Position numbers and translations under genes: made by a program | In this document: positions 27,875-60,752 of the stretch, in pieces | Layout: the number at the start of each line of letters is the position of its first letter | Numbering within the stretch: the first letter of the stretch is position 1 | Source: an uncultured Lachnospiraceae bacterium | Lineage (GTDB): Bacteria > Bacillota > Clostridia > Lachnospirales > Lachnospiraceae | Direction of reading: 5' to 3' | Assembly: GCA_900318375.1 (NCBI GenBank) | Contig: ONKG01000033.1 | Span: forward strand, 1-64,000 | Length of the DNA stretch: 64,000 nucleotides | Notes under the pieces: model-generated | What the model was told of the DNA's origin: nothing | Database searches by the model: none | What the model saw: the letters and a program-made list of their open reading frames with translations, nothing else

Positions 27875-28045
27875 GATGTTGAGGTCAAAAGGTGGTTAAG
27901 GGAACACCGTCTCGTCAAGTTGCACAAACGCCTTGGGCACGCTCTCGCTCTACCCTCGCTGGCAGGGCCGCTCGCCAAGGCCCTTCGGCTGTTTGTGCAA
28001 CTTGACGAGACTCAGAGCCATTGGATACCTTTTGACCTTTACATC
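27875..28045 (+). mobile_element. Miniature inverted-repeat element, copy A
   Basis: This 171-bp element starts GATGTTGAGGTCAAAAGGT and ends with the reverse complement of GATGTAAAGGTCAAAAGGT, giving imperfect terminal inverted repeats. Inside are long inverted arms (CTCGTCAAGTTGCACAAAC and its complement) around a GC-rich centre. Two further copies (34020-34209, 60601-60752) are in the opposite orientation. The 7-bp flanks match (ATATTAT on both sides), consistent with target duplication. It has no coding capacity and would need a transposase in trans. Confidence 0.8.
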
Positions 28046-28060
28046 ATATTATTACATAAT
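28032..28060 (+). promoter_or_regulatory. Hybrid promoter: -35 in element copy A, -10 in flank
   Basis: TTGACC (28032-28037) lies inside the right terminal repeat of the element. CATAAT (28055-28060) lies in the flanking DNA 17 bp away. The next gene (28208) would have a leader of about 140 nt. Confidence 0.5.
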
Positions 28061-28207
28061 AGTAATTGTTTCGTATCAAATATGCGTCTGCATGTTTTCC
28101 GGAAAGTTTTATGGCAGCAGTACTCAGTATCATGCTGAACAAACAGGTCAACATGATAATGAGTAATAAGAAAGGCACTAAGAACAGAAGTAATCAGGAG
28201 GTAATGT

Positions 28208-29230
28208 ATGTCTGATACGAAGATGGTTCCCAATGCAGTTCCGGGTACAGGCGGGGAAAAGTATATTCCCATGGAAGAGAGGACCGGTAATGAGTCCATC
28301 GTGTATTTTACACGCGACCTTTCTCCGGAAGGCCTGCAGAAGATTTACAACAAGGTAAACGGCAATATCGACGGCAAGGTGGCGATCAAGCTCCACACCG
28401 GTGAAAAAGACGGCCCCAATATCATTCCCAGGCCCTGGGTCAAATATCTGATCGAGAATCAGCCCGAGCTCAAGGATGCCGCGATCGTTGACACCAATAC
28501 CTTCTATCCGGGCGACCGCGACTCGACCGAGAAGCACCGCGAGACCATCGCCCACAACGGCTGGACTTTCTGCCCTGTTGATATCATGGATGAAGAAGGC
28601 ACAGCTATGCTTCCCGTTAAGGGGGCCAAGTGGATCCCTGAGATTTCTGTCGGCAGCCATATGCTGAACTATGACTCCATGTTTGTCCTGACCCACTTCA
28701 AGGGCCACGTCATGGGCGGCTTCGGCGGCTCCAACAAGAATATCGGCATCGGCTGCGCAGACGCAAATGTCGGCAAGGCGCAGATCCACACTAAGACCGG
28801 AAAATTCAATCACTGGGATATTGCCAAGGAAGAGCTGATGGAGCGCATGGCGGAATCCTCCAAGGGCACGGTCGATCACTTCGGGAAGAAGATCACCTTT
28901 GTCAACGTCCTGCGCAACATGTCTGTCTCCTGTGACTGCGAGGGCACCGCAGCACAGCCCGTCGTAACTCCCAACATCGGTATCGTGGCTTCCACAGATA
29001 TTCTGGCAGCAGATTCCGCATCCGTTGATCTGGTCTTTGCCCTCAATGACGAGGACCACGAGGATCTGGTCAAGCGCATGACCAGCCGCCACGGCCTGCG
29101 CCAACTCTCCTATATGAAGGAACTGGGCATGGGCAATGACCGCTATATCCTGATCGATGTCGACAATGACGATTGTCTGATCTGCCCCAAAGAAGCCGTC
29201 AAGGATGTTGTTCCTTTCGTCGCGGAATAA
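28208..29230 (+). CDS. DUF362-family protein
   Basis: The 340-residue product resembles DUF362 proteins: KVAIKLHTGEKDG near residue 55, FVLTHFKGHVMGGFGGSNKNIGIGCA near residue 160, and a conserved SASVDLVFAL region. Many relatives carry ferredoxin motifs; here only isolated Cys remain (CDCEG, CLICPK), so it is the non-ferredoxin form. Function unknown, presumably cytoplasmic. AGGAGG (28196-28201) precedes ATG 28208. Codons are strongly biased to C-ending forms, as in valS and radA, which suggests high expression. Confidence 0.8.
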   Translation: MSDTKMVPNAVPGTGGEKYIPMEERTGNESIVYFTRDLSPEGLQKIYNKVNGNIDGKVAIKLHTGEKDGPNIIPRPWVKYLIENQPELKDAAIVDTNTFYPGDRDSTEKHRETIAHNGWTFCPVDIMDEEGTAMLPVKGAKWIPEISVGSHMLNYDSMFVLTHFKGHVMGGFGGSNKNIGIGCADANVGKAQIHTKTGKFNHWDIAKEELMERMAESSKGTVDHFGKKITFVNVLRNMSVSCDCEGTAAQPVVTPNIGIVASTDILAADSASVDLVFALNDEDHEDLVKRMTSRHGLRQLSYMKELGMGNDRYILIDVDNDDCLICPKEAVKDVVPFVAE

Positions 29231-29316
29231 ATCACTTTAAAGATCCTGATCAAGGGGTAATGATTCTTTTGTTCATCTTTGTTGAGATGCAAGTCAGACA
29301 TTGATTGAAGAGGCAG

Positions 29317-29355
29317 GGGTATTGCATCGATATAAAATGATGCAATACCCTTTTT
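29317..29355 (+). terminator. Terminator after the DUF362 gene
   Basis: A perfect 12-bp stem (29317-29328 with 29339-29350, GGGTATTGCATC) followed by TTTTT. Confidence 0.92.
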
Positions 29356-29397
29356 AATGTGCAGCTTTTTAAAATTTATAGGGAGGCGTAGATAAGA

Positions 29398-30201
29398 TTG
29401 GCTATTGCCAGAGTGAGTTTTTTTTCAAATCAACTGCACCGCACGGTGCCGTTTATGGCCGTTCTGCCCAACGACGGCGAAGCATATCCGGGGCAGGTCC
29501 CTGATTTCGTGACGGGAAAAATGAAAACGCTTTACCTTCTGCATGGCTATTCGGGCGACGAAAATGATTATCTGTCCAATTCACTGATCAGGGAACTGAG
29601 TGCAAAATACAAGATTGCCGTGATCATGCCCGCGGGAGAAAATCTTTTCTATGTGGATTCCGAAGACGATGTGATCGGTTACGGCAGATATATCGGGGAG
29701 GAACTGGTCGAATATACCAGGAGGATCTTCCATCTGAGCGAGAAGAGGGAGGATACCTTTATCGGCGGCCTGTCCATGGGAGGATACGGGGCAATGCGCA
29801 ACGGTCTCGTCTACCATGACACCTTCTCCAAAATCTGTGCTTTCTCCGGTGCTTATATCATCTTCCGGATCATTGACGCAGGAGGAAAACCCTACACGGA
29901 TGAAGTCTCCGGACCAGCCTTTCAGAAAAGAGTGTTCGGCAATTTCAGGACACTCAAAAAGCGCGGCCTGGATCCCAGAGACCTGGTTTTGAAATTGAAG
30001 AAATCCTCCGGGCAGATCCCCGAAATCTTTATGACGATCGGTACCGATGATTTCCTGCTTGATCTGAATCGCGCTATGCGGGATACGCTCGTAAAGGCTG
30101 AGGTACCCTTTACCTATATTGAGGATGAAGGGATCCATGACTGGGCATTCTGGAACAAACACATGGAGGATGCTTTTGCCTGGCTGGCAGGAGAGAAGTA
30201 A
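29398..30201 (+). CDS. Alpha/beta-hydrolase esterase (esterase D / tributyrin esterase type)
   Basis: The 267-residue product has LYLLHGYSGDENDYL (oxyanion region), the nucleophile motif GGLSMGGYGAM near residue 125, an Asp in TIGTDDFLLD and a His in EGIHDWAFWNKHM, which complete a Ser-Asp-His triad. This is the order and length of acetyl/tributyrin esterases of Firmicutes. No signal peptide is visible. It starts with TTG 29398, with GGGAGG about 10 bp upstream. Confidence 0.88.
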   Translation: MAIARVSFFSNQLHRTVPFMAVLPNDGEAYPGQVPDFVTGKMKTLYLLHGYSGDENDYLSNSLIRELSAKYKIAVIMPAGENLFYVDSEDDVIGYGRYIGEELVEYTRRIFHLSEKREDTFIGGLSMGGYGAMRNGLVYHDTFSKICAFSGAYIIFRIIDAGGKPYTDEVSGPAFQKRVFGNFRTLKKRGLDPRDLVLKLKKSSGQIPEIFMTIGTDDFLLDLNRAMRDTLVKAEVPFTYIEDEGIHDWAFWNKHMEDAFAWLAGEK

Positions 30202-30297
30202 CAGGGTGCCGGTGACGAGGCCCTCATCTGCCTTCCCTGACCTGACCGACCTGCGTCCGCCGTAAGGCGGAAAAATATATTAGACGAGCCGTGTCAT

Positions 30298-30336
30298 AAA
30301 AAAAGACCTCCTGCAGTCTGCAGGGGGTCTTTTTTT
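30298..30336. terminator. Bidirectional terminator between esterase and ABC transporter operon
   Basis: An A7 run, a stem of AGACCTCCTGCA pairing with TGCAGGGGGTCT (two G-T pairs) and a T7 run. It serves convergent genes on both sides. Confidence 0.88.
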
Positions 30337-30372
30337 ACTCATTGGATATTCAGGATCTATAAATCCCGTGTT

Positions 30373-31236
30373 TTATTCTTCCGCAGCAACGGCATACTGG
30401 TCAGCAAGATTGGCAATGGTGCCGTCCCCAACCATTTTTTCGATTTCGGCATTGAGAGCATTGAGGAGCTCTGTGTTGCCCTTCTTGACAGCAATTCCAT
30501 ATTCTTCAGAGGCGAACTGGTCATTGTCCTCAACGATTACAAGGTTTGCGTCTTTGTTGTCGTTGACATATTTCTGGGCTGTAGCGGAATCGATGACGAC
30601 AACATCGGATTTTCCATTGATAAGATCCATGATGGCATCGGGTCCCTTCTTGAAGGAAACATACTCGAAGCCCAGTTCTTTCACGCAGGTCTCACCGGTG
30701 TAGCCCTGGATGACAGCGATATTCTTGCCCTCCATATCAGCGGCTTTCGCGATTTCAGTGCCTTCCTTGATGATCATGACCTGAGTCGCGTTGTAGTAAG
30801 GCATTGTAAAGTCAACAGACTCTTTGCGCTCTTCTGTGATGGTCATTCCTGCGATAATGGCATCGATCTGTCCATTCTGAAGGGCGATCAGGAGAGAGTC
30901 AAATTCGATGTTGTTGATGGAGACTTCAGCACCCAGATCATCACCGATCTGCTTGGCGATTGCCATGTCAATTCCGTCAAACTCACCGATTGCGCCGCCG
31001 GTAGAAGAGATGAACTCGAAGGGAGGGAACTCCGCATTGGTACCGAACACGATTTTGTCAATGCCTGCAGCACTTTCTGCAGCGCCGGCGGTTGAGCCGG
31101 TTTCAGTGGTCTCTTCCTTGTTTTCAGCAGGCTGGGAAGATGTGGAATTGGAGCCGCCGCAGGCTGCGAGCGAAACGACCATTCCGACGGTCAGAAACAG
31201 GGCAGCTGCTTTCTTCATCATTTTCATAACTTTCAT
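30373..31236 (-). CDS. Polar amino-acid ABC transporter substrate-binding lipoprotein
   Basis: The 287-residue product has a lipoprotein signal ending VVSLAACGGS, then a type-II periplasmic-binding fold of the SBP_bac_3 family: IVFGTNAEFPPFEFI, FDGIDMAIAKQIGDDLG, and ITEERKESVDFTMPYY, the usual sequence around the ligand pocket. It captures a polar amino acid (glutamine, arginine, cystine or similar) outside the membrane. AGAGGA precedes the start. It is the last gene of a permease/ATPase/binding-protein operon, separated from the ATPase by a 200-bp gap with a hairpin. Confidence 0.92.
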   Translation of the reverse strand: MKVMKMMKKAAALFLTVGMVVSLAACGGSNSTSSQPAENKEETTETGSTAGAAESAAGIDKIVFGTNAEFPPFEFISSTGGAIGEFDGIDMAIAKQIGDDLGAEVSINNIEFDSLLIALQNGQIDAIIAGMTITEERKESVDFTMPYYNATQVMIIKEGTEIAKAADMEGKNIAVIQGYTGETCVKELGFEYVSFKKGPDAIMDLINGKSDVVVIDSATAQKYVNDNKDANLVIVEDNDQFASEEYGIAVKKGNTELLNALNAEIEKMVGDGTIANLADQYAVAAEE

Positions 31237-31340
31237 AACTTTTCCTCTTTAGATGATTGATCCATTTTTTGTGACGTTGACAGTTGCATTTTCAGGCATA
31301 CATCAATATGCCGGACGATCCTTGCTTTTATCAGGCTTAT

Positions 31341-31365
31341 GGCAATATTCCGGATGGATATTGCC
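31341..31365. other. Intercistronic hairpin in the ABC transporter operon
   Basis: An 8-bp stem GGCAATAT/ATATTGCC (31341-31348 with 31358-31365) lies between the ATPase and binding-protein genes. In the direction of the operon no T run follows, so RNA stabilisation or processing is more likely than termination. Confidence 0.45.
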
Positions 31366-31436
31366 TTTTTCCGGTATACATCAAAGCTGCCAGATGGTTA
31401 TTATACTACGTTCGTCCTGCGATATCCATAAAAATA

Positions 31437-32159
31437 TCAAAGAACTTTGCTCAGGAAGCTCTGTGTTCTTTCGTTCTTGGCAGAAGTGAAGATCTGATCA
31501 GGAGTGCCTTCTTCAACAATCACACCGCCGTCCATAAAGATGACCCTGGTACCGACTTCGCGCGCGAAGCCCATTTCGTGTGTCACAACGACCATGGTCA
31601 TACCGGATTTTGCCAGATCCTTCATAAGATCCAGAACTTCTCCTACCATCTCGGGATCAAGTGCGGAAGTAGGCTCGTCAAAGAGCATGATCTCCGGGTG
31701 CATGGCAAGCGCTCTGGCGATTGCTATACGCTGCTTCTGACCGCCGGAGAGCTGAACGGGATAGTTCTCTGCCTTATCCAGCAGTCCGATTCTGGTGAGA
31801 AGCTCACGGGCAGTATTCTCCGCTTCGGCTTTATTGGCCTTGCCGAGCCTGATGGGAGCCAGTGTGATGTTTTCCATGACAGTCTTATGGGGAAACAGAT
31901 TAAAGTGCTGGAAAACCATCCCCATTTTCTGCCGCATCAGATCGATATTGGCCTTCGGGGCATTGATCATTTCCCCGTCGATATAGACCTCGCCATCAGT
32001 CGGAACTTCAAGCATATTGAGACACCGGATCAGAGTACTCTTTCCCGAGCCGGACGGACCGATGACGACAACGACTTCCCCCTGTTTGACCTCGAGATCG
32101 ATCCCCTTGAGGACTTCCAGGTCACCAAACGATTTATGCAGGTTTTTTACGCTGATCAT
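31437..32159 (-). CDS. Polar amino-acid ABC transporter ATP-binding protein
   Basis: The 240-residue ATPase has Walker [11 protein letters not shown]-loop [13 protein letters not shown], signature LSGGQKQR, Walker [13 protein letters not shown] and the H-loop in [10 protein letters not shown]. This matches the GlnQ/HisP-type ATPases of polar amino-acid importers. GGGGAG lies before the start. It works with the permease just upstream (18-bp gap) and the binding protein downstream. Confidence 0.95.
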
Positions 32160-32176
32160 AGGATTGCTCCCCTCTT

Positions 32177-32866
32177 TTATCTGATATCTGATTTTCTCAA
32201 ATTGGTTTCTACTCTGCTGAACAGAATGGTCAGGATCTTAATAAGTGTAAAATAGATCACGGCGGTCGCAATCAGAGGCAGGAAAGCCTCAAATGTCGCG
32301 CTCTTGATAAAGTCACCTGCTTTCTGCAGATCCATGAGTCCAACGTAACCCACGATGGCAGTCTCTTTGATCAGGACGATGAATTCATTGCAGAGAGAAG
32401 GAAAAATATTCTTGACCGCCTGCGGAATGACGATATCCTTCATTGTCTGCGAGGCACTCAGCCCCAGTGAACGTCCGGCCTCTGTCTGTCCCTTATCCAC
32501 AGAGAGGATGCCGCCCCTGATGATCTCGGAGACGTATGCGCCCGAATTGATACCGAAGGCAATAGATGCAATGATCCATTTGGGCAGAGGAACCGTCGCA
32601 AAGATGACAAAATAAATGATCATCAGCTGTGTGACGGAAGGTGTTCCGCGGATTATGTCCGTATAGATCTTTGCGATCATACGCAGGGCTTTGCTGTTGG
32701 ACAGTGCGAACAGAGCGATGATCATACCGATAATGACGCCAATGACTACAGCGAGCAGGGATGTCTCGATCGTGACACCAAATCCTTTTACAAGAAGCAT
32801 GTATCTGTCGTCGGTGATAAAACACATCTGAAATTTCGCGACGACAGATTCCCACCAGGTATTCAT
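32177..32866 (-). CDS. Polar amino-acid ABC transporter permease
   Basis: This 229-residue membrane protein has about five transmembrane segments and the permease EAA-type loop ([24 protein letters not shown]). YADDR-type N-terminal sequence and [20 protein letters not shown] fit the His/Glu/Gln/Arg permease family. Start 32866 (MNTWWESVV) is favoured by GGGGGT 9 bp upstream; an in-frame ATG at 32884 lacks a site. It is the first gene of the operon. Confidence 0.93.
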
Positions 32867-32917
32867 AAAATATACCCCCATCATTAATAAAATACAAAAT
32901 TCGCAAAAACATCTTTC

Positions 32918-32946
32918 ATTATAGGGGCTTGACTGTTTAAAAGCAA
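32918..32946 (-). promoter_or_regulatory. Promoter of the ABC transporter operon
   Basis: On the reverse strand, TTGCTT (32946-32941), a 17-bp spacer and TATAAT (32923-32918). The leader is about 45 nt, too short for a large riboswitch. Confidence 0.7.
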
Positions 32947-33129
32947 CTTAAATCCTCACGAAAAAGAATACAGATTGTGCATAGATTGAGTCAGAAAGCG
33001 AGAAGCAGAATAAAAATAAATGGACAAAGCGGGGACAAAATGATAATGTAAATACGTTTCCTATAGATACGATATACGTGGGCGGACATGTCTCATGAAA
33101 GCCCTGACCGGAAAGGTGGAATAGACATT

Positions 33130-33654
33130 ATGAGTTTACTGAAGCAGTGGCGCGACAAGGCCTATGACGAATCTGCAAATAAAGGTGACCTGCAGAGACT
33201 GTGGGCAGACTATTTTGAAAAGGAAAAGAACATTTATACAGTTCTTCTGAAGGACCCCGATGTAGAAGTAAAGGGAACCGTAAAGGAACTGGCAGAAAAA
33301 TACGGGATCGATCTGATGACCATGGTGGGATTCCTCGACGGAATCAATGATTCCCTGGTCACCCCCAACCCCATCGAAGAAATGGAAGAGGACACTGAAG
33401 TAAGCCTCGGCTTTGACAAAGAGAAACTCTTCAAGAATATGGTCGCTGCAGGCGCGGACTGGCTGTACGGCCTTCCCGAGTGGAATGACATCTTTGATGA
33501 AGAGACACAGAAGCGCCTCTACCAGGAGCAGAAACAGTCCGGCACCGTCAAGAAGGGCAAGAAGATCTATCCCAACGACCCTTGCCCCTGCGGCTCCGGC
33601 AAAAAATACAAAAAGTGCCACGGCAGAAACGGCGCTAACCGCTTCGAGAACTGA
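33130..33654 (+). CDS. SEC-C motif protein
   Basis: The 174-residue product has an acidic helical body and ends with a SEC-C zinc-binding motif, [17 protein letters not shown] (CxCx8CH). The motif is the one found at the C-terminus of SecA and in many small proteins of unknown role. Start 33130 (MSLLKQW) follows AAAGGTGG; in-frame 33088 has no such site. It is monocistronic and divergent from the ABC operon. Confidence 0.85.
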
Positions 33655-33656
33655 TC

Positions 33657-33747
33657 GGGACACGTGGGACGGTACCTTTGACAACATATAACTTCCTATG
33701 ATGAGGCTGTCATTGTTGGGACACGAGGGACGGTTCTGACTGTCCCA
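33657..33747 (+). repeat. Two GGGACACG-type short repeats after the SEC-C gene
   Basis: GGGACACGTGGGACGGT (33657-33673) and GGGACACGAGGGACGGT (33718-33734) differ by one base. The second forms a small hairpin GGGACA/TGTCCC (33718-33723 with 33741-33746). A third, shorter GGGACGG occurs at about 33789 and can pair with CCGTCC near 33836 before a T run, giving a likely terminator. No gene is seen between 33655 and 34019. Confidence 0.65.
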
Positions 33748-34019
33748 ATCATCCAATGAAGAATTAATAGGATATTATTGCAGTATCAGGGACGGTTCAG
33801 TCCGACTCATCCTGAACGGATGGATCAGACAGAGCCGTCCTTTTTTGGTTCTGTTTTTACACACAGGTTAGTCTTATCGCTTTTTAGGGAATGCGTGACC
33901 TTTCCCATTTTGGCCGTCTCAGTCGCTTCACTTTTTCAAAGCGAGAGTGACTTTTTCTTTTTTAAGCATCTCCGTCGCTATGTTTTTTTCAAGGCAAGAG
34001 TGATTAAGGACATCTTTAT

Positions 34020-34209
34020 GATGTAAAGGTCAAAATGTATCCAATGGCTCTGAGTCTCGTCAAGTTGCACAAACAGCCGAAGGGCCTTGGCGAGCGGCCG
34101 GTACTTGGCCGCTGATTTTTAGCGGCCTTAGCACCGCGAGAGCGTGCCCAAGGCGTTTGTGCAACTTGACGAGACGGTGTTCCCTTAACCACCTTTTGAC
34201 CTCAACATC
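34020..34209 (-). mobile_element. Miniature inverted-repeat element, copy B
   Basis: This 190-bp copy, the longest of the three, is in opposite orientation to copy A. Ends are GATGTAAAGGTCAAAA and the complement of GATGTTGAGGTCAAAAGGT. The 8-bp flanks ATCTTTAT are identical on both sides, a clean target-duplication pattern. The centre carries 38 bp absent from copy C, including an inner GGCCGCTGATTTTTAGCGGCC-like hairpin region. Confidence 0.85.
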
Positions 34210-34404
34210 ATCTTTATGTGAAATGTCGCTTTTCTTTTTTGCTGGAAGAGTGATCCTGGGTTTCCTGATTGGAAATATCGCTGAGAGAGGGACATAGCAT
34301 GTTGGCAGGAATCGAAAATGTTTGTTAAAGTGAGAAAAATGGCAGCAAAAAAAGAGGGATGGCGGCGATTGCCGGCATCCTGCCCCAAAAAAAGGCATGT
34401 TTTA

Positions 34405-34453
34405 AGGGCTGTTGATCAGCTGAAGAAACTTTTTCAGCTGAGGCAACAGCCCT
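34405..34453. other. Strong hairpin downstream of the J-domain gene
   Basis: AGGGCTGTTG (34405-34414) pairs with CAACAGCCCT (34444-34453), and CAGCTGAA pairs inside with TTCAGCTG. It lies past the end of the reverse-strand operon, but no T run follows in that direction, so terminator function is uncertain. Confidence 0.5.
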
Positions 34454-34464
34454 GATTGTTAATA

Positions 34465-34533
34465 GGACATACTGTCTTAAAAGGACATACTGTCTTAAAA
34501 GGATATACTGTCTTAAAAGGATATTCTGTCTTA
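34465..34533. repeat. Four 18-bp tandem repeats downstream of the J-domain gene
   Basis: The unit GGACATACTGTCTTAAAA occurs at 34465, 34483 and 34501 (with C-to-T change) and partly at 34519. It sits 37 bp past the stop codon of the reverse-strand gene. Confidence 0.88.
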
Positions 34534-34569
34534 TATTTAGCGGAAAAATCGAACCATTAAGGTAAGGGG

Positions 34570-35370
34570 TCAGCAGCTTCTGCCGTTTCCGCAGCAGCAG
34601 ATATTGCACAGGGCATTCAGGCAGATGTAAGTCGCGCAGATACGCATGCACTGGCCGCCTGCATCGACGGGAGCCCCATATGACTGCTGCCTTGAGGAAT
34701 ACCATTTGCTGCCGGACTGAATCTGCTGCAGCATGTTCTGGAAAATCTGATTGTCCGGTTCCATGGAAACAGCCTGCTGGGCGTGTTCGAGAGCGACGGC
34801 ATCATTGCCTATGCCGCTGTTTGCGGCGGCGCTGTAGTAGTACCACTGGGCGCTGCGCTCCTCCATGGCATCGAGAACGTTGAGGGCCTCCTGGAACATT
34901 CCATGGTTGATATAGCTTGCGGCAGCGCGGAGATGGATGGCCTCTTCGCTGTTATCCTGCGTGTAGGCTCCCTGCGTGCCGAAACCGAAGCTGCTGAAAA
35001 ACTCGTTCCAGAATTCGGAGAAATCCTCAAAGTTGCCGTAATAGGTGTAGGTGGTGCCGTCTTCATCCTGCCAGGTCTGTCCGGAGCTTTGCTGGGAACT
35101 GTAGGGACTGCTGCCCGGACGGGAGCTGCCCTGAGGCCTGCCGTAGCCTGAAGTACCGAAACCGGAACTTGAATATGGATGCTGGCGCTCATACATGACC
35201 TGCTGATAGGCCTGCTGCACGAGTTTGAACATTTCCTCTGCTTTGTCCTTGTCAGGATTGTTGACATTGGCATCCGGATGATATTTCCGGCTCAGCTGCC
35301 GATATGCCTTTTTGACTTCGTCGTCGGTTGCGTCCCGGGAAATACCGAGAATCTTATATGGATCTGACAT
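34570..35370 (-). CDS. J-domain (DnaJ-like) protein with TPR and Cys-rich end
   Basis: The 266-residue product starts with a J domain ([22 protein letters not shown] tripeptide in RKYHPDAN), which stimulates DnaK-type chaperones. A Gly/Ser/Gln-rich linker follows (about 70-110), then a helical TPR-like region (about 150-220) and a C-terminus rich in Cys ([20 protein letters not shown]). It lacks the zinc domain of classical DnaJ, so it is a specialised co-chaperone. It forms an operon with the DUF5685 and zinc-ribbon genes. Confidence 0.85.
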
Positions 35371-35413
35371 GATCTTTATCTTTCTCTGTCTTGTATGAAT
35401 GACGGCCTGTTAT

Positions 35414-36295
35414 TCAGGCCGGGTCCTGGTGCTGGCTGACGTTATCGTCAGGGCATGCGCCGGTGCGTTTTGCATAGATTTCTTCAAATTTTGTCCAGAC
35501 GCCTGCATAAAGTATATTCCGAAGTATATCAACATTTTTTACGATGGGCAATATCTCAAATGCGCGTGTGCATGAGGCCATGAGCATGGTCAGAAGAGTG
35601 CGCATATAGCCGTTGAAGTCGGCGCCGTTTTCCTGCATCCTTGCCCGGACAGGCAGGAGAGGATTAAAGCTCCCGGAAACCGCATCGTCTTCCAGATCGT
35701 CGTAGGCGTCGAGGAGATAGATGAATTTGCCCAGATAATAGCCCATTCGGCGAAGAGGCTCTTCCCACTCGTCATGCCGGAAGGCAAAGAGCTCCGCCAT
35801 CAGATCACCGAAGCAGGCGCCGGCCTGGTCGGGCGAAACCTCCTGCTTTTCCATCGTGTGCAGGCGCTCGAGACAGTCAGCGATGACCTGTGCTTTTTCA
35901 GGGTAGAGCTCTTTTGCTCTTTTAAACCCGCCGTGAAGAATGCCCGACATGGCAAGCCCCCGGATCTGCTGCTCGTCCTCCCAATTGTCACGCATGGAGT
36001 ACCAGGAGAGGAGAATAGTGACATGCGCCGCGTACTGTGTGTATTTGTTCCTGCGCCTGGGCCGTTTGCTGAAGGGATGGGCGATACAGGAAGCCTTTTC
36101 AAAGGTTTCATCTTCAGGCTCATACAGACAGGTCAGCAGAAGCCCCAGAAAAGCGGTGTCATAATTGAGTGTGAGCTGACCGAACCTGCCGTAGTGTTCA
36201 TGCAGCTCCTCACACAGCCCACAATAATAGCTGCGGTACAGGTCAAACTCCCGTATCCGCAGCTCCGGTTCATTGATCACAACATATCCAAACAT
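35414..36295 (-). CDS. DUF5685-family protein
   Basis: The 293-residue product (MFGYVVINEPELRIREFDLYRSYYCGLC) matches DUF5685 as I recall it. It is mostly helical with conserved Cys near the N-terminus (YYCGLC) and near residue 70. A DAYDDLEDD motif near residue 195 recalls the metal-binding aspartates of isoprenoid synthase folds, and LNYDTAFLGLLL is the other conserved part. No function is known. It lies 43 bp upstream of the J-domain gene, so the two probably act together. Confidence 0.75.
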   Translation of the reverse strand: MFGYVVINEPELRIREFDLYRSYYCGLCEELHEHYGRFGQLTLNYDTAFLGLLLTCLYEPEDETFEKASCIAHPFSKRPRRRNKYTQYAAHVTILLSWYSMRDNWEDEQQIRGLAMSGILHGGFKRAKELYPEKAQVIADCLERLHTMEKQEVSPDQAGACFGDLMAELFAFRHDEWEEPLRRMGYYLGKFIYLLDAYDDLEDDAVSGSFNPLLPVRARMQENGADFNGYMRTLLTMLMASCTRAFEILPIVKNVDILRNILYAGVWTKFEEIYAKRTGACPDDNVSQHQDPA

Positions 36296-36778: not shown

Positions 36779-36794
36779 ACTTCAGCTCCATGGA

Positions 36795-52026: not shown

Positions 52027-52643
52027 GAGTGACTGTCTGTGTATCCGGCGGAGGAACCAATCTCCAGGCGATCATCGACCGCATTCAGGATGGCACGATC
52101 CGCAATGCGCAGATCGTCCAGGTGATCAGCAATAATGCCGGAGCCTACGCGCTGGAGCGCGCCGCAAAGGCGGGTATTCCCGGAATCTGTGTGTCCCCGA
52201 AGGATTATCCGGACCGGGAGACCTTCAATGAGGCGCTTCTGGCAAAGATCAACGAAGTTTCCCCGGATCTCATCGTGCTGGCGGGCTTTATGGTCGCCGT
52301 CCCGAGACAGATCTGTGCCGCCTACGCCGGGAAGATCATCAATATTCATCCGGCTCTGATCCCTTCCTTCTGCGGCAAGGGATATTACGGCCTTCACGTC
52401 CATGAGAGAGCTCTTGAGAGGGGGGTCAAGGTCACCGGCGCCACAGTGCACTTTGTGGATGAGAATCTCGACACGGGACCGATCATCCTGCAGAAGGCGG
52501 TCGAGATCATGGAAGATGATACACCTGAGACGCTGCAGCGCCGTGTCATGGAGCAGGCGGAGTGGATCATCCTGCCCCGCGCTATTGACCTGATCGCAGC
52601 GGGAAGGGTCAAAATCGAGGGCCGCAGGACCAGGATTTCCTGA
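52020..52643 (+). CDS. purN: Phosphoribosylglycinamide formyltransferase
   Basis: The 207-residue product transfers a formyl group from 10-formyl-THF to GAR. It shows [14 protein letters not shown], the catalytic [11 protein letters not shown] (Asn and His) and [13 protein letters not shown] (Asp). The start codon lies inside the last codons of purM. Confidence 0.96.
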
Positions 52644-52842
52644 TTTTCTGCAGAGCAAACACTTTATGTTTTGCGGGGAATGCTGATCCTATAGAACAGG
52701 TCCTATCTGGTCCTATATAGAAAGATTGAGACATGGAGAGCGGAGGGCGCAGCAGAGGCTGCTGTCTCCGCTGTCCGTGGTTTATACGAAAACACAGTTG
52801 GTCCGGCCGTCTTCTTGGCGGAGATGGGCAGTGATTTGACAA

Positions 52843-52882
52843 GCAGGTCTCGGACAAGCAGGTTTCGGACAAGCAGATTTCG
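52843..52882 (+). repeat. 15-bp tandem repeats before purD
   Basis: GCAGGTCTCGGACAA (52843), GCAGGTTTCGGACAA (52858) and a partial copy (52873-52882) end at the in-frame ATG 52883. Confidence 0.8.
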
Positions 52883-52897
52883 ATGGAGGAAAAAGAC

Positions 52898-54193
52898 TTG
52901 GCAGAGAAGAAAATGAACATGAAAGTGCTGTTGGTAGGCGGCGGCGGAAGAGAACACGCCATCGCGGACGCGATCCTGCGCAGCGAACGCGTTGCGAAGC
53001 TGTACTGCGCTCCCGGAAATGCCGGCATTGCGCGCATCGCCGAGTGTGTCCCGATCGGGACCATGGATTTTGCGGCTCTGACCGCTTTTGCGAAGGAGAA
53101 GGAGATCGACCTCACTGTCTGCAGCATGGATGATCCGCTCTGCGCGGGCATCGTGGACGCTTTCGAGGCAGAGGGACTGCGGATCTTCGGCACACCCGCC
53201 AATGCGGCTATTATCGAGGGCAGCAAGGCCTTCTCGAAAGACCTGATGAAAAAATACGGCATCCCCACAGCTGCCTATGAGACTTTTGAAGATGCGGACA
53301 AGGCACTGGCTTATCTTGAGACAGCCTCTTTCCCCATCGTTCTGAAGGCGTCCGGACTGGCTCTGGGCAAGGGCGTCCTGATCTGCGGGGACCTGGCTTC
53401 CGCAAAGGACGGAATCCGCGAGCTGATGATGGACAAGAAATTCGGCGACGCCGGAAACAGCGTAGTCATCGAACAGTTTATGACAGGCCGTGAGGTCTCC
53501 GTACTGGCATTTGTAGACGGCACCCACTATCAGCTGATGACTTCCTCCCAGGACCACAAGCGCCAGGGAGACGGCGACACCGGCCTCAACACCGGCGGTA
53601 TGGGAACCTTCTCTCCCAGCCCCTTCTACACACCCGAGATTGATGCCTGGTGCCGTGAGAATATCTACGACAAGACCGTGGCAGCCATGGCAGCAGAGGG
53701 ACGTCCTTTCCGCGGTGTCCTCTATTTCGGCCTCATGATGACCCCCGACGGCCCCCGAGTCCTCGAGTACAACACCCGCTTCGGCGATCCCGAGACCCAG
53801 GTTGTCCTGCCCCGCATGAAGACGGATATCATTGATGTGATGGATGCCTGCATCGACGGCACCCTGGATCAGATCAATCTGGAGTTCTATGACAACGCGG
53901 CAGTATGCGTCGTCATTGCCTCCGGCGGCTACCCTGAAAGCTACGAGAAGGGCAAAGTCATCACCGGTCTGGACAAGTTCGACGGACAGACGCAGTATCG
54001 CTGCTATCACGCCGGCACATCCTTTGATAAGGACGGAAATACTGTGACCAGCGGCGGAAGAGTCCTGGGCGTCGTAGCCATCGGCGATACACTCAAAGAG
54101 GCCCGCGCCAATGCCTATGAGGCCGCGAAGTATGTGCATTTTGACAAGATGTATATGCGCAGCGACATCGGCAAGGCAATTGATGCTGTGTAA
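52898..54193 (+). CDS. purD: Phosphoribosylamine-glycine ligase
   Basis: This 431-residue ATP-grasp enzyme makes GAR. Landmarks: KVLLVGGGGREHAIADA, the ATP-grasp loop VLKASGLALGKGVLI, DHKRQGDGDTGLNTGGMG and YNTRFGDPETQ. TTG 52898 has GGAGGA 7 bp upstream; ATG 52883 (no site) and ATG 52919 (directly before KVLLVG) are alternatives. It is separated from purN by 254 bp with repeats, but has the same direction and pathway. Confidence 0.93.
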   Translation: MAEKKMNMKVLLVGGGGREHAIADAILRSERVAKLYCAPGNAGIARIAECVPIGTMDFAALTAFAKEKEIDLTVCSMDDPLCAGIVDAFEAEGLRIFGTPANAAIIEGSKAFSKDLMKKYGIPTAAYETFEDADKALAYLETASFPIVLKASGLALGKGVLICGDLASAKDGIRELMMDKKFGDAGNSVVIEQFMTGREVSVLAFVDGTHYQLMTSSQDHKRQGDGDTGLNTGGMGTFSPSPFYTPEIDAWCRENIYDKTVAAMAAEGRPFRGVLYFGLMMTPDGPRVLEYNTRFGDPETQVVLPRMKTDIIDVMDACIDGTLDQINLEFYDNAAVCVVIASGGYPESYEKGKVITGLDKFDGQTQYRCYHAGTSFDKDGNTVTSGGRVLGVVAIGDTLKEARANAYEAAKYVHFDKMYMRSDIGKAIDAV

Positions 54194-54259
54194 TGGAAAA
54201 TGATGGATCAATTCCGCAGGCCATGTCTTTTTCAGGGGGAGTTTTTTCGGAGAGTGTAA

Positions 54260-55273
54260 ATGAATAATACAGGACGACCGCAAAGAACTATGATCAGGCT
54301 GACTGCCCTGGCTGCTGCTATCACCGTAATCCTTTTGATGACTGTTATATCGGTTTCGGCAGCCACAATCAACGCTACGGATGTCGCGATCCGGAATAGC
54401 GCTGAGGATAAATCCGATTATTCCAATGCCATCGGTGTTCTGCAGCAGGGAGACCGGGTGAAAGTATTATTCTGGACGACTGACTCCTCCGGGAACGAGT
54501 GGTATTATGTAGAGCTTGAGAACGGAAACAGGGGATATGTAAAGGCCCGGTGGGTCGATCTCGGCGATGAGGAAGCTGTAGAGGAAGAGTCAGCCGCGCA
54601 GGAGAATGGTGTTCCGGTGACTGATGACGAAGACACCGCCGGCAGGGAAGAGGATGTTGGCCGGAAAGAAGACGGCCGCACGATAGAGGATGCCGGCCAG
54701 GAAGAAGCCGGCGGACAGGATAACGCTGTTCCTGATGATGGCAGGACCCGGAATGACGAAGAGAAGACGTCGGGAACTCCCGCCTCCGCTGATGAGACGG
54801 CCGAGTCAGTCTCCGATGAGGAGAAAACGGCTGACTCACAGGACGCTCCTCATGTAGACAATGGTCAGGAATACGATCCCTATACAGATCCCAACGCACA
54901 GTATGGCATCAATTTCGCCACAGAAGATGATGGGACCGGACACTGGTACATCTACAATTACGATACTGACAAGCGGATCAGGATCGACGATCTGGGGAGA
55001 CTCAGTGACGCAGAGGCCGCGGCACAGAAGAGTACGGCTGCTGCCGGAAGGTGGCGTGCGATCGCCTGTATTCTGATAGTCACTCAGATTTTTACGATCG
55101 TACTTCTGCTGATGCTGAAAAGATCTCTGGATTCAGCCTTGAAAAAGCAGAATAAGCCGCAGATCACCGGGCGGACAAACCCGAAAGGACACCGCAGACA
55201 GGGAAGTCTGGCTCCTCAGGATGATCCTGCCGGGAACCTTACCATCACCCGGGACGAGGATTTGGACCTGTAA
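54260..55273 (+). CDS. SH3b-domain membrane protein, short paralog
   Basis: The 337-residue product has a signal peptide or first membrane segment (about 12-34), an extracellular bacterial SH3 domain (about 37-100: ATINATDVAIRNSAED, GVLQQGDRVKV, ENGNRGYVKARWVD), an acidic linker, a conserved YGINFATEDDGTGHWYIYNY segment and a C-terminal transmembrane helix (about 270-290) with a basic tail. SH3b domains often bind peptidoglycan. It is a tandem paralog of the next gene. CGGAGAG precedes ATG. Confidence 0.85.
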   Translation: MNNTGRPQRTMIRLTALAAAITVILLMTVISVSAATINATDVAIRNSAEDKSDYSNAIGVLQQGDRVKVLFWTTDSSGNEWYYVELENGNRGYVKARWVDLGDEEAVEEESAAQENGVPVTDDEDTAGREEDVGRKEDGRTIEDAGQEEAGGQDNAVPDDGRTRNDEEKTSGTPASADETAESVSDEEKTADSQDAPHVDNGQEYDPYTDPNAQYGINFATEDDGTGHWYIYNYDTDKRIRIDDLGRLSDAEAAAQKSTAAAGRWRAIACILIVTQIFTIVLLLMLKRSLDSALKKQNKPQITGRTNPKGHRRQGSLAPQDDPAGNLTITRDEDLDL

Positions 55274-55588
55274 AACCAAAAAAGGGCGGATATCTGCCTT
55301 GAGAGATTTTTCTTCAACTAATAAATTCAGCATATATTTATTTACACCGAGTAACTCAAGAATTTTTCCCACAAAAGCATATCCGGTGTTATAATGATAG
55401 ATGGCATTACTGCCGGGAGCTGATTTGTTCCGGAAACAGTAGTGTACAGAAGCGGAAACTGCCGGATTTGATTATTGCAGCGTGGGAAGTAAAGTGACCG
55501 GTGCTGCGGACGGAAGTTTCCTGTCATCAGGAGAACGATACTTTGAACAGCACTGCCGGAGTCAGCGGCTCCGGCCTCGGAGGGAGAA
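55274..55588 (+). promoter_or_regulatory. Gap between SH3b paralogs with extended -10 promoter
   Basis: TGTTATAAT (55387-55395) is a perfect extended -10 on the forward strand; the -35 is weak. The second paralog can thus be transcribed on its own, with a leader of about 185 nt. Nothing else was seen. Confidence 0.4.
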
Positions 55589-57442
55589 ATGAAAAACACA
55601 AGACTGGGACGCAGAAGTGCCGTCAGGCTTGCAGCAGCGGCTGTTGCGATCACAGCGGCATTTATACTGGCAGTGATGCCTGCCGCCGCCGCTACGATCA
55701 ACGCTACGGATGTCACGATCCGCAATACCGCTGAGGATAAACCCGATTTTTCCAATTCCATCGGTGTTCTGCAGCAGGGAGACAAGGTGGAAGTAATATC
55801 CAAGACGACTGACTCCGCCGGGAACGAGTGGTATTATGTAGAGCTCGAGAACGGAAACAAGGGTTATGTAAAAGCCCAGTGGGTCGATAACGGCGACGCG
55901 GATGTTGCGGAGGAGGAATCTGCCGGACAGGAAGAAGATACCCAGGAGGCCGGTGGCGAAGATGCAGGCGGTCAGGAAGAAACCGGCGGTCAGGAGGCCG
56001 GCGTTGAGGAAGAGACTGCAGCTGATGATGCCTGGACTCAGGATGACGAAGATCAGACGGCGGGAACTCCCGCTTCCGGTGACGAGACGGCAACATCTGT
56101 TTCCGATGAGGATGAAGCTTCTGATTCACAGGATGCTCCTGATGTTGACAATGGTCAGGAATACGATCCCTATACAGATCCCAACGCACAGTATGGTATC
56201 AATTTCGCTACAGAAGAAGATGGAACCGGACACTGGTACATCTACAATTACGATACTGACAAGCGGATCAGGATCGGTGATCTTGAGAAACTCAGTGACG
56301 CGGAAGCCGCGGCACAGAAGAATGCAGCCGCTGCCGGAATGTGGCGCACGATCGCCTGCATTCTGATTCTCCTTCTTGTGGCTCTGATCATCTTCCTCTA
56401 TGTTGTTCTTCACAGAAACGGATTCGGAGGTCCCGCTCCTTCCAGAAGAAGCCGCAGACAGAGAAGCCTGCCTGCTGACGACGAAGAGGATGAAGATGAC
56501 GAAGATTCTCTCTCCTGGGACGGAGAAGATCAGGATGAAGATACTGAGGCAGACACTGAAGAAGATGAAGATGATGCCGAGATAGGTAACGACGAAGCCT
56601 ATGATGAGGGTGAGGATGATTTCTCTGAAGAGGAGGAGGAACCCGCTCCCCGTCAAAAGAAAGGCGGCCTGTTCGGAGGTTTCAAGGCAGGCGGAAGAAA
56701 GAGCGCTCTGTTCTCACGCGATGACGTGGATGAAGAAGATGAAGAGGAAGAGGAAGAAGATGATGAAGACGCTGATTCCTCTGATGACGATGACCTCTAT
56801 GATGAAGAATCCTACGACGATGATTCCTATGATGAAGAGGAAGATGAGGAAGAGGATTACGATGATGAGGAGGAAGACGAAGCTCCCCGTAAAGGCGGAA
56901 TCCTGGGCTTTCTGAAAAATATCTTTTCTTCCGGTGATGAAGAAGAGGATTTTGACGACGAAGACGAGGAAGACGAGGATTACGACTACGAGGACGAAGA
57001 AGACGAGGAAGAAGACTACGACGATGAGACGGAAGAAGAGGAAGAAGAGGAAGAGCTTCCCCCCGTCAGAAAACAGCGCAGTCAGAACCGCCGTTCTTCC
57101 GGAAAATCCGAGTCTGTCCCCCGTCCCAGACCCCGTCAGGCCCGCAAGATCGAGTTTGATGAGGAGACGGATTATCCTGAAGATGCTGAACTGCTGTCCT
57201 CTCTTTCCTCCATTACCGCTTCTGCTGACGAAGACACAGTCACAGAGGTCATTGAGGAAGCAGCCGCCGAAACTGCAGACAATGTGAAGACAGCCAGGGC
57301 GGCAGCACAGAGTGCCGCGCGCAGGCAGCCTGCACAGCCGATCATCGAAGAGGACGACGATGAAGAGTTCTTCGCGGACGACGATGATGATATGGAGTAT
57401 TCCTTCCTCAACAGTTCTTCCAAACGCGGATCCCGCAGATAG
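55589..57442 (+). CDS. SH3b-domain membrane protein with very acidic cytoplasmic tail
   Basis: The 617-residue product has the same first 280 residues as its neighbour (signal, SH3 domain, acidic linker, YGINFATEEDGTGHWYIYNY, transmembrane helix about 258-280). The remaining ~330 residues are predicted cytoplasmic: Asp/Glu blocks with Tyr (DDDSYDEEEDEEE-type), broken by basic-aromatic islands such as KKGGLFGGFKAGGRK and RKGGILGFLKNIF. Such tails are intrinsically disordered and may bind cations or basic proteins; the function is unknown. GGAGGGAG precedes ATG. Confidence 0.85.
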   Translation: MKNTRLGRRSAVRLAAAAVAITAAFILAVMPAAAATINATDVTIRNTAEDKPDFSNSIGVLQQGDKVEVISKTTDSAGNEWYYVELENGNKGYVKAQWVDNGDADVAEEESAGQEEDTQEAGGEDAGGQEETGGQEAGVEEETAADDAWTQDDEDQTAGTPASGDETATSVSDEDEASDSQDAPDVDNGQEYDPYTDPNAQYGINFATEEDGTGHWYIYNYDTDKRIRIGDLEKLSDAEAAAQKNAAAAGMWRTIACILILLLVALIIFLYVVLHRNGFGGPAPSRRSRRQRSLPADDEEDEDDEDSLSWDGEDQDEDTEADTEEDEDDAEIGNDEAYDEGEDDFSEEEEEPAPRQKKGGLFGGFKAGGRKSALFSRDDVDEEDEEEEEEDDEDADSSDDDDLYDEESYDDDSYDEEEDEEEDYDDEEEDEAPRKGGILGFLKNIFSSGDEEEDFDDEDEEDEDYDYEDEEDEEEDYDDETEEEEEEEELPPVRKQRSQNRRSSGKSESVPRPRPRQARKIEFDEETDYPEDAELLSSLSSITASADEDTVTEVIEEAAAETADNVKTARAAAQSAARRQPAQPIIEEDDDEEFFADDDDDMEYSFLNSSSKRGSRR

Positions 57443-57489
57443 CATATCATCCCCTGCAGCCGGTATGTAAAGGCTTTGGGCAGATTATC

Positions 57490-57527
57490 TTGACAGAGCA
57501 TGTCACGTGTTATATTATACATATAAC
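57490..57527 (+). promoter_or_regulatory. Consensus promoter with overlapping palindromic operator for the GntR gene
   Basis: TTGACA (57490-57495), a 17-bp spacer and TATTAT (57513-57518). Over the -10 lies GTTATATTATACATATAAC (57509-57527), a 7-bp inverted repeat with 5-bp centre. An outer pair GAGCATGTC/GACGTGCTC encloses it and a T run follows, so the same DNA can form a terminator for the SH3b gene. Self-repression by the GntR product is a natural reading. Confidence 0.7.
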
Positions 57528-57602
57528 AAGACGTGCTCTGCTTTTTTATGTCTTTTTATGTCTTTCCGGCAGGGCATGTGGAAGGAAATGGAGGGATATG
57601 CT

Positions 57603-57971
57603 ATGCTAATCAAGATCGACTTTAGCAGTGATGAAGCGATTTACCAGCAGCTGTGCAATCAGATCATTCTGGGTATTGCGACCGCAGCTCTGGAGGAAGG
57701 TCAGGCGCTTCCCTCGGTACGCCAGATGGCGGATGACATCGGCATCAACATGCATACAGTCAACAAGGCCTACTCGATCCTGAGGCAGGAGGGCTTTGTA
57801 AAGATGGACCGCAGGCGCGGAGCAGTAATATGTGTTGACGTGGATGCGATGCGTGCAAGGGCGCAGCTGGAAAAAGACCTTCGTAAACTGCTGGCACAGG
57901 CCAGATGCCGCAACATGACGCGGCTGGAACTTCATCGTATGGTGGATAGTATTTACGATGATTATGAATGA
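57603..57971 (+). CDS. GntR-family regulator, YtrA/YhcF type
   Basis: The 122-residue product is a winged-helix repressor: IYQQLCNQIILGIATAALEEGQALPSVRQMADDIGINMHTVNKAYSILRQEGFV is the GntR DNA-binding domain (cut here to family landmarks LPSVRQMA and TVNKAY), followed by a short ~45-residue helical tail typical of the YtrA group. Such regulators usually control adjacent membrane-protein or ABC genes. Start 57603 has GGAGGG 7 bp upstream. It sits 87 bp before clpC. Confidence 0.9.
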   Translation: MLIKIDFSSDEAIYQQLCNQIILGIATAALEEGQALPSVRQMADDIGINMHTVNKAYSILRQEGFVKMDRRRGAVICVDVDAMRARAQLEKDLRKLLAQARCRNMTRLELHRMVDSIYDDYE

Positions 57972-58058
57972 TCTTCCGTGAACGGACGAAAATAACAGGC
58001 TGCCGGATATACCGGATAGGAAAACAATCAGGCTAATAAAGAGAAAGAAATCGATTTC

Positions 58059-60542
58059 ATGAAGGATAATTACACCAAAAATGCCCTTGCTGCCCTCAGG
58101 GCGGCCAAGAGTGCTTCCCAAAAGGCGAATCAGAATTATATAGGAACAGAGCATCTGATTCTGGGACTTGCCCAGGAACCGGACGGTGTTGCTTCCAGAA
58201 TCCTCTCTGAGAACGGGGTGACGAAGGAACGTCTGGAGGAGATGATCACCCAGCTCAACATTCATCCCGGAAGTCTTGCGCTTCTTGACCACGAGGGGTA
58301 TTCTCCGCGCTGCCAGAAGGTTCTCCATATGGCACAGATCCAGGCAAAGAAATACCGCTCTGACCAGACCGGCACGGAACATATCCTGCTGGCGGTCATC
58401 CTGGAGAAGGAAAATGTCGCGCTCAAGATCCTGGAGGCCATGGGGATCAACATTCCCAAGATTTACTTTGAGCTTCTGGCTGCTATGGGTGAGGACCCCG
58501 CAGCACATCGCAGTGACCTGCAGGGTGAAGGAAACGGGCCGGAGCAGCGCGGGATTCTGGATCAGTACAGCCGGGATCTGACACAGATGGCCTATGACGG
58601 CAGGCTTGATCCTGTCATCGGACGTGAGGATGAAATACGCCGTGTGATCCAGATCCTGAGCAGGCGGACGAAAAACAATCCGGTCCTAATCGGTGAGCCC
58701 GGTGTCGGCAAGACAGCTGTCGTCGAGGGACTGGCGCGCAGGATCGTGTCCGGTGATGTACCGGCATCCGTGCGGGACAAACGCCTTTTGACCCTGGATC
58801 TTTCAGGCATGGTCGCAGGGACCAAGTACCGCGGCGAGTTCGAAGAGAGGATCAAGAGGGTCATCGAGGAAGTGACCGCGGACAAGAATATCATTCTCTT
58901 CATCGATGAGCTGCACACCCTGATCGGGGCCGGCGGCGCCGAGGGATCCCTGGATGCCTCCAATATTCTCAAACCCTCGCTCTCCCGCGGCGAAGTACAG
59001 CTGATCGGTGCGACGACGATCACTGAGTACCGAAAATATGTCGAAAAGGATGCTGCTCTGGAGCGGCGTTTCCAGCCGGTCCAGATCGAGGAACCGACTC
59101 CGGAACAGACCATCGAGATTTTGAAGGGCATTGTTCACATCTACGAAGAGCACCACGGAGTAAAGGTGGAGGAAGAGGCGCTGAAAATGGCAGTTGACCT
59201 CTCTGTCCGCTATATTAATGACCGCAATCTTCCCGATAAGGCCATCGATGTCATTGATGAGGCCTGTGCGGCCGTGCGTCTCAGTTCGGGCGACAGCGGC
59301 AATAAAGCCCTTGCCCTTGAAGAAAGGATCAGGGATACGGATGCCCGGCTGGCCCGGGCTTTCATGGAGGGAGACCTCAACGAGGCACGCGCCCTGCGCA
59401 AAGAGCAGGATATTCTGGTCAAAAAACTGGAGAACCTCAACAACCGGAAAGAGCGCGCAAAGGGAGGCAAAGCAGTTCCGGTTACTTCCGAGGACGTTGC
59501 ATCAGTGATCTCTATCTGGGCCAAGGTGCCTGTCACCCGCCTGACGGAACGTGAGAGCGCCCGGCTTCTTCGCCTGGAAGATGAGCTCCATAAGCGCGTC
59601 ATAGGCCAGGAGGATGCAGTGGACGCGGTCTCCCGGGCCATCCGCCGCGGCCGCGTCGGCCTGCAGAACCCCGACCGCCCGATCGGCTCTTTCCTCTTCC
59701 TGGGACCTACCGGTGTCGGCAAGACCGAGCTGTCCAAAGCACTTGCCGAGGTCATGTTCGGCTCCGACAAGGATTTGATCAGAATCGATATGTCGGAATA
59801 CATGGAACAGTATGCGGTTTCCAAGATCATCGGTTCCGCGCCCGGCTACGTGGGATACGAAGAGGGCGGTCAGCTCTCGGAAAAGGTCCGCCGCCATCCC
59901 TATTCCGTCGTGCTGTTCGATGAGATCGAAAAGGCGCATCCGGATGTTTTCAACATCCTGTTGCAGATTCTGGATGAAGGTCATATAACGGATTCCCAGG
60001 GCCACAAGGTCAATTTCAAGAACACCGTGATCATCATGACCTCCAATGTCGGCGCTCAGAAGATCATCGCGCCCAAGACCCTTGGATTTGCGGACAAGCC
60101 GACCAAAGAGCAGGACTATGAGCGCATGAAAAAGGGCGTTATGGACGAGGTCAAGAAAATCTTCCGTCCGGAATTCATCAACCGTATCGATGAGATCCGG
60201 GTCTTCCACGCGCTCAGCCGTGAGGAGATGGGAGAGATTACCATGCTCCTGGCTTCCGATCTGATCAAGCGCGCCAAAACACAGCTGGGGATCGATCTTA
60301 AGATCACTGCAGCCCTGCGCAATCATATTGTCGACGAGTATGCGGATGACAAGATGGGAGCCCGCCCCCTCAAGCGCGCGATCCAGTCTGTGATCGAAGA
60401 CCCTCTTTCCGAGAAGATCCTTGCGGAGGAATTCACTGCAGGCTGCACTGTGACCGCCGGCTTCCGCGGAGGCGAAGTGACCTTTACCGGAACGAAAAAA
60501 GGTGTAAAAAAAGAGGCTCTGAAGGAAGCTTTGACTGATTAA
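58059..60542 (+). CDS. clpC: ATP-dependent Clp protease ATPase subunit ClpC
   Basis: The 827-residue product has a double Clp-N domain (about 1-145), NBD1 with [13 protein letters not shown] (about residue 212) and FIDELHT, a middle coiled-coil (about 405-455), and NBD2 with [14 protein letters not shown] (about residue 549) and [16 protein letters not shown]. It unfolds proteins for ClpP. The usual ctsR-mcsA-mcsB genes are absent; a GntR gene precedes it instead. Confidence 0.95.
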
Positions 60543-60600
60543 TGAGGCTATCCGGCTTCCTGAAGATTTTTACAGTAATACAGTGTGCTCAGCATATAAT

Positions 60601-60752
60601 GATGTAAAGGTCAAAAGGTATCCAATGGCTCTGAGTCTCGTCAAGTTGCACAAACAGCCGAAGGGCCTTGGCGAGCGGCCGGTACTTGGCCGAAGGCGTT
60701 TGTGCAACTTGACGAGACGGTGTTCCCTTAACCACCTTTTGACCTCAACATC
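60601..60752 (-). mobile_element. Miniature inverted-repeat element, copy C
   Basis: This 152-bp copy equals copy B minus 38 central bp and has the same orientation. Flanks are ATATAAT and ATATATT, a near match. It lies between clpC and radA and ends 14 bp before the radA start codon. Confidence 0.85.

Follow-up and report, generated by a model that had tools for sequence, protein, structure and literature searches.

The window, by which we mean the whole 64,000-nucleotide stretch analyzed here, from an uncultured Lachnospiraceae bacterium, contains three short repeats (copies A, B, and C; Table 1) that have the terminal inverted repeats GATGTNNAGGTCAAAAGG in common, with one change at one end of B, and whose inner arms correspond to inverted repeats I1 to I9 of the window. 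Copy A lies between genes that Pfam matches identify as a diaminopimelate epimerase (positions 26676 to 27581) and a DUF362 protein (28208 to 29230). Copy B has a SEC-C protein gene on one side (33088 to 33654; Pfam) and, on the other side, encoded on the opposite strand, a frame that no Pfam family matches (34325 to 34705) and a DnaJ protein gene (34570 to 35370; Pfam). Copy C is located between a Clp ATPase gene (58059 to 60542; Pfam) and a gene at 60767 to 62143; read from their domains, these two genes appear to be clpC and radA. Copy A is oriented one way and copies B and C the opposite way, and the bounds of all three are given without the flanking AT. Re-inspection of the window sequence bore out the coordinates that an earlier note had given for the copies, together with the common terminal inverted repeats and long inner arms it had described and its account of the flanks as identical at A (7 bp) and B (8 bp) and near-identical at C. 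A search of the window against Rfam at the gathering score returned 0 matches.

Table 1. Positions of the three element copies and their flanks in the window
Feature	Position	Strand	Remark
Left target-site duplication of copy A, ATATTAT	27868..27874		Exact match to 28046-28052
MITE copy A, GATGT...ACATC, 171 bp as assembled	27875..28045	+	Type 2 full length ~208 bp
Right target-site duplication of copy A, ATATTAT	28046..28052		7 bp
Left target-site duplication of copy B, ATCTTTAT	34012..34019		8 bp
MITE copy B, 190 bp as assembled	34020..34209	-	18 bp short of type 2
Right target-site duplication of copy B, ATCTTTAT	34210..34217		Exact 8 bp
Left flank of copy C, ATATAAT	60594..60600		One mismatch in 7 to 60753-60759
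MITE copy C, 152 bp as assembled	60601..60752	-	Between clpC-like and radA-like genes
Right flank of copy C, ATATATT	60753..60759		One mismatch in 7 to left flank

Copy number and target-site duplications

The host assembly of the window (3.93 Mb in 193 contigs, 82% complete) was searched with the terminus pattern ATGATGTNNAGGTCAAAAGG, allowing up to three mismatches, which gave 84 matches versus 1 for a reversed-pattern control. Seven of these ends were left out of the pairing scan (three on contig C93, which carries the insertion sequence [IS] described below, and four three-mismatch hits); the other 77 comprised 60 that paired into 30 elements and 17 that remained unpaired, three of them located at contig ends. 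Full-length forms measure ~208 bp (type 2) or 227 bp (type 1), and the element starts with GATGT-NN-AGGTCAAAAGG and ends with the complement of that start.

Exact flank duplications of 7 or 8 bp were found at 25 of the 30 elements (19 of 7 bp and 6 of 8 bp) and, in two relatives represented by one genome each, at 28 of 32 copies (G010) and 5 of 8 copies (G008); two further G008 copies, outside this count, have flanks that match over 9 bp. Overall, such a duplication flanks 58 of the 70 paired copies from the three species, whereas shuffling of the right flanks (n = 2,000) left 1.9 on average and 7 at most. Taken with the 84 terminus matches against 1 in the control, this shows that the family is not a product of chance, and the many genomic copies that the earlier note had foreseen are indeed there. 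AT stands at both the start and the end of 49 of the 58 exact duplications. At two copies (C126:7299 and C115:58861), CT or AC adjoins GATGT and the changed dinucleotide recurs in the other duplication; the AT is therefore target and the element proper is GATGT...ACATC. The preferred target takes the form AT-N3/4-AT within AT-rich sites. Insertion sites are mostly intergenic: once rejoined, the site was spanned by an ORF of 150 aa or more in 7 of 28 cases, versus 219 of 280 control positions.

The copies in the window are thus short elements (152 to 190 bp) without a transposase gene, they have terminal inverted repeats, target-site duplications, and multiple dispersed copies, and an autonomous partner with equal ends exists (L046 in this assembly, L098 and L099 in the relative G028; see below). 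The earlier note had spoken of an active or recently active MITE family: copies, terminal inverted repeats, and duplications sustain the MITE part, and the wording "recently active" is a fitting one, zero mismatches to the consensus being seen in 8 of the 21 shortened copies of the window's genome that were taken into the fit below.

Distribution and orthologous gaps

A match to the element was found in 8 of 61 genomes, all within the window's genus (its own genome and 7 of 36 others), and in 0 of 24 genomes of other genera; two of the seven relatives (G017 and G023) gave single weak partial matches. Among these 61 genomes, the family so far appears only in this genus. In named records, the inner-arm pattern was matched by 29 stretches, of which 24 come from uncultured Lachnospiraceae bins (20 of these from RUG12566) and the rest from one Acetatifactor muris, three Eisenbacteria, and one Burkholderiales; the A. 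muris stretch (L124) contains no palindrome or terminal inverted repeat and was set aside, as it looks like chance. A literature search on MITEs in Lachnospiraceae found no paper.

A radA match was present in 53 of the 61 genomes, the window's own included. The earlier note had proposed looking for empty sites in orthologous gaps, and such a gap exists for copy C: the clpC-radA spacer was aligned for the 10 closest of the 52 relatives with a radA match, and in these it is free of the element as judged by eye, although the spacer beyond the coding ends is not conserved and the comparison shows an element-free gap rather than the exact pre-insertion site. G008 has one element copy on the opposite side of its radA gene. 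We make no claim of an empty site for copy A, as the spacers of relatives do not align base by base and, in G018, a short palindrome like the element ends (L174) lies in the spacer before the same DUF362 gene; given this palindrome, insertion at the copy A locus may have recurred.

The centre of the element

In alignments the arms are near-identical, yet nearly every copy has a private central deletion. Each copy was fitted as a prefix plus a suffix of the full-length consensus, and the test that follows excludes 18 of the 70 copies (six of full length, five with N, one over consensus length [C143], and six poor single-deletion fits [C115:24292, C169, L201, L217, L222, and L224]). Among the 52 shortened copies, junction homology was 0 to 2 nt in 50, and one arm was 91 to 99 nt long in 42, irrespective of side and centre type; the length of the kept arm plus the flank common to another copy came to 99 to 106 in most copies. 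We therefore predicted that an arm would end 99 nt past the last position where the copy differs from any of the others. This rule held on one side or the other in 40 of the 52 copies (15 of 21 own, 21 of 25 in G010, and 4 of 6 in G008), a count that gives each copy two chances (left or right arm) and scores junction ambiguity as a fit. In the same test, a length of 98 gave 14 fits and a length of 100 gave 9, and the remaining printed lengths, from 70 to 130, gave at most 4. With a smaller set of comparison copies and looser inclusion, a previous run had given 39 of 55 (14 of 21 own, 21 of 28 in G010, and 4 of 6 in G008); copy A missed the rule in that run, which did not include C84, a copy with a flank in common with A.

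Within the window, the left arm of copy A stops after 91 nt and the right arm of copy C is kept for 92 nt, both as predicted; the right arm of copy B is kept for 116 to 118 nt, against a prediction of 116, shifted there by a point difference. Four copies with N-gaps break at 94 to 96 nt on the left side (sums of 99, 100, 102, and 103). Diverged copies C115:58861, C168, and C85 are of full length (227 nt, with 6 to 16 differences from the consensus), C112 and C137:5387, with 2 to 3 differences, are intact at 208 nt, and L118, a diverged copy from a bin named separately, has a complete type 2 centre, as judged by eye. Twelve of the 52 copies miss the rule: five by 1 to 2 nt (C137:3844, C177, L209, C126:7299, and C78), which unassembled copies could explain; two by 5 to 7 nt (L228 and C145:355); and five widely (C156, L225, L202, L232, and L196), which may be true deletions.

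By default, IDBA-UD goes up to k = 100, and its scaffolding clips the second contig by an estimated overlap. Contigs built at k = 100 would stop 99 nt (k - 1) after the sequence becomes common to another copy, and the joining step would then presumably clip the other arm; we infer that the ragged second arm is due to this clip. The fit of 15 of 21 own copies suggests that the window's genome, too, was probably assembled at k = 100. As far as the available parts of the reports go, IDBA-UD was used for single-sample rumen-genome assemblies in three studies, which are possible sources of the bins used here (PMC6785717, PMC7820578, and PMC7469290), and MEGAHIT co-assemblies are also reported, with k up to 87 (PMC7820578) or 81 (PMC7469290). 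A literature search on assembler artefacts with MITEs brought nothing like the present case to our notice.

The central size differences among copies would, on this account, be mostly a product of assembly, and the size difference between A, B, and C is present in the letters but probably absent from the organism. Two statements of the earlier note have to give way here. The variable centre that it ascribed to the family is best explained by short-read assembly at k = 100, and so is the description of copy C as copy B minus 38 bp, which is better not taken for evolution of the element; the stops of B and C both fit the 99-nt rule.

A candidate partner element

Contig C93 carries, at L046, a gene for a 536-aa transposase (1051 to 2661, minus strand) that is bounded by the ends GATGTTGAGGTCAAAA at 893 and GATGCTGGGGTCAAAAGG at 2833 and 2860; it is the only full-length match to this transposase in the assembly. 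The locus has no exact target duplication, and its right end is doubled. The protein contains DUF772 and two DDE domains (Pfam), and its best NCBI model is that of the IS1182 family (NF033551; E = 1.7e-39), which it resembles in having a single long ORF with these domains; it differs in scoring 136 bits against a cut-off of 270 and in the partner's 7- or 8-bp duplications of the form AT-N3/4-AT. Two IS copies in G028 (L098 and L099), one with an internal stop in its gene, encode proteins 64 to 65% identical to the L046 transposase; they have the ends GATGTAAGGGTCAAAA / GATGTTGGGGTCAAAAG and, as judged by eye, the duplications ATGATTAT and ATATTAT. Such matching ends and duplications link IS of this kind to the form of the duplication. 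Residues D158, D351, and E478 are identical in the two sequences L046 and L099, and their catalytic assignment was made by eye. An insertion sequence with ends matching the MITE, which the earlier note had proposed to look for, is thus present in the window's own assembly and, in two copies, in G028.

The resemblance between MITE and IS is limited to the terminal ~16 to 20 bp, which means that none of the IS copies seen would give the MITE by mere loss of its interior. In G008, G010, G011, and G014, all of which carry the MITE, hits below E 1e-20 cover the N-terminal part of the transposase alone, as with the LacZ fusion described below, and the two of these assemblies that are rich in the MITE, G008 and G010, yielded no intact relative of the L046 protein. 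Solo 28-bp palindromes of the IS right end, considered as a possible general target or footprint, occur in 2 of 61 genomes only.

The available part of PMC5678879 places IS1272 in the IS1182 family, the broad family whose model the partner matches best, and describes it as replacing a stem-loop instead of generating a canonical duplication. The present elements differ from IS1272 so described in duplicating 7 or 8 bp: stem-loop replacement was not encountered at either G028 IS copy or at the 58 of 70 MITE copies, all of which have duplications; L046 is without any. MITEAba12, as far as described in the available part of PMC6382973, is likewise a non-autonomous IS-derived element with inverted repeats; it is set apart from the present family in its host and, presumably, its sequence.

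Beta-galactosidases carrying an N-terminal domain of the L046 transposase type recur in the genus, and a literature search on transposase-domain beta-galactosidases found no paper on such fusions. In the transposase, this domain probably reads the GATGT...GGTCAAAAGG ends. That it was adopted by the host in beta-galactosidase, with the intergenic MITEs as docking sites for the enzyme or a regulator, strikes us as very improbable; if true, scattered MITE copies could dock a metabolic enzyme or its regulator.

Discussion

The consensus single strand folds strongly (z = -10.9), as would be expected under two accounts that compete with a mobile element and assembly-made centres. According to one, the size differences are real, the central hairpin of the palindrome having been cut or slipped over after insertion to leave private central deletions. 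Nearly every shortened copy does have its own junction, and 12 of 52 copies miss the assembly rule, 5 of them widely; from the alignments we had favoured such hairpin processing, and we dropped it once the 99-nt rule emerged. Sharing of flanks sets the stop of one arm, to the base, in 40 of 52 copies, and the rule applies to both types of centre and across the three species despite different stop sequences; moreover, N-gaps break near the same point, and it is near-identical copies that are "deleted" while diverged copies are intact. Real deletions as the source of the size differences are therefore quite unlikely. The other account, that of a family of fixed, structured regulatory RNAs or terminators, could also draw on the mostly intergenic sites and on the related short palindrome in the copy A spacer of G018, but it is largely refuted by the target duplications at 58 of 70 copies. 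That 10 relatives lack the element in the gap orthologous to that of copy C, that its presence is patchy (8 of 61 genomes), and that the window has no Rfam match also speak against a regulatory RNA, to which we give practically no credence. The repeats are a real MITE family, one more to be added to the known MITEs, in an element that is otherwise ordinary, noncoding and palindromic. We hold it very likely that this identification and the assembly origin of the centre differences are jointly correct, a judgment that does not extend to the partner.

As for what moves the MITE, a transposase of the IS1182-like kind is the likely agent, judging from the termini and duplications, and L046 is a plausible candidate mobilizer. 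The DDE transposase of such an IS would recognize the termini common to IS and MITE, cut the element out or copy it, and insert it at an AT-rich AT-N3/4-AT site with duplication of 7 or 8 bp, presumably in that order. The MITE might instead be moved by another, unassembled transposase with similar ends, the L046 element being only a cousin. The MITE-rich assemblies G008 and G010, with no intact relative of the L046 transposase, and the resemblance that ends after ~16 to 20 bp would suit this reading; the G028 IS copies, with equal termini and an equal form of duplication, argue against it, and short-read bins often lack multi-copy IS. We consider another transposase possible but rather unlikely.

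In short-read assemblies, repeats near 200 bp can look like a family of private central deletions, and checking whether the kept arm plus the shared flank equals k - 1 tells this assembly effect from real variation, which matters for surveys of MITEs and palindromes in metagenome-assembled genomes. For the organisms themselves, the family has apparently spread lately within its genus, and our analysis adds one MITE family, together with its likely partner IS, to what is known of a genus whose members are mostly uncultured Lachnospiraceae.

Transposase-like domains and solitary ends of the IS1182-like element

Matches to the N terminus of the IS1182-like transposase extend beyond transposases: GH2 beta-galactosidases carry an N-terminal domain (DUF772) related to it, with 38-52% identity between the two, and Pfam found both the GH2 part and the transposase-like N-terminal domain in 7/7 of the proteins tested. 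Matches to the transposase N terminus in frames of >600 aa were present in 27/61 same-genus genomes, own included (row count), among them genomes free of the MITE, such as G012, G016, and G020.

Solo 28-bp palindromes consisting of the IS right end only were seen in 2/61 genomes, and at L046, the locus of the IS1182-like candidate mobilizer, the right end is doubled next to the IS (L046:2816-2862); these are perhaps footprints or stem-loop targets.

Features of the loci and the window
Feature	Position	Strand
GH2 beta-galactosidase with transposase-like N terminus	L097:3278-7903 (G000:C130)	minus
Further beta-galactosidases with such an N-terminal domain	L102, L103, L104, L076, L082, L091	
Solo 28-bp IS right-end palindrome	L254 (G018:C123:27730-27761)	
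Solo 28-bp IS right-end palindrome	L255 (G028:C62:801-832)	
Short tandem repeat, 38-bp units	window 5987-6138	
Short tandem repeat, 45-bp units, within long ORF 12704-18049	window 15071-15501	
Short tandem repeat, 27-bp units	window 22605-22784	
Similar blocks of two adjacent ORFs	window 54258-54985 and 55587-56275	
Short tandem repeat, 40-bp units	window 62514-62714	

Other repeats in the window

Besides short tandem repeats, the window holds two adjacent ORFs (54260-55273 and 55589-57442) that have 300-nt blocks in common at 78-84% identity, the latter ORF also having a highly acidic Asp/Glu-rich repeat stretch.

Surroundings of MITE copies A and C

Upstream of the DUF362 gene in the relative G018 (contig C47, L174) lies a short palindrome similar to the element ends; it occupies the spacer equivalent to that of copy A in the window and may be an independent insertion or a remnant. 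Between the end of copy C and the radA-like start codon there are 14 bp (window 60752-60767), in which no obvious ribosome-binding site remains by eye. Since copy C stops this close to the start codon, the leader of the radA-like gene is largely derived from the element.
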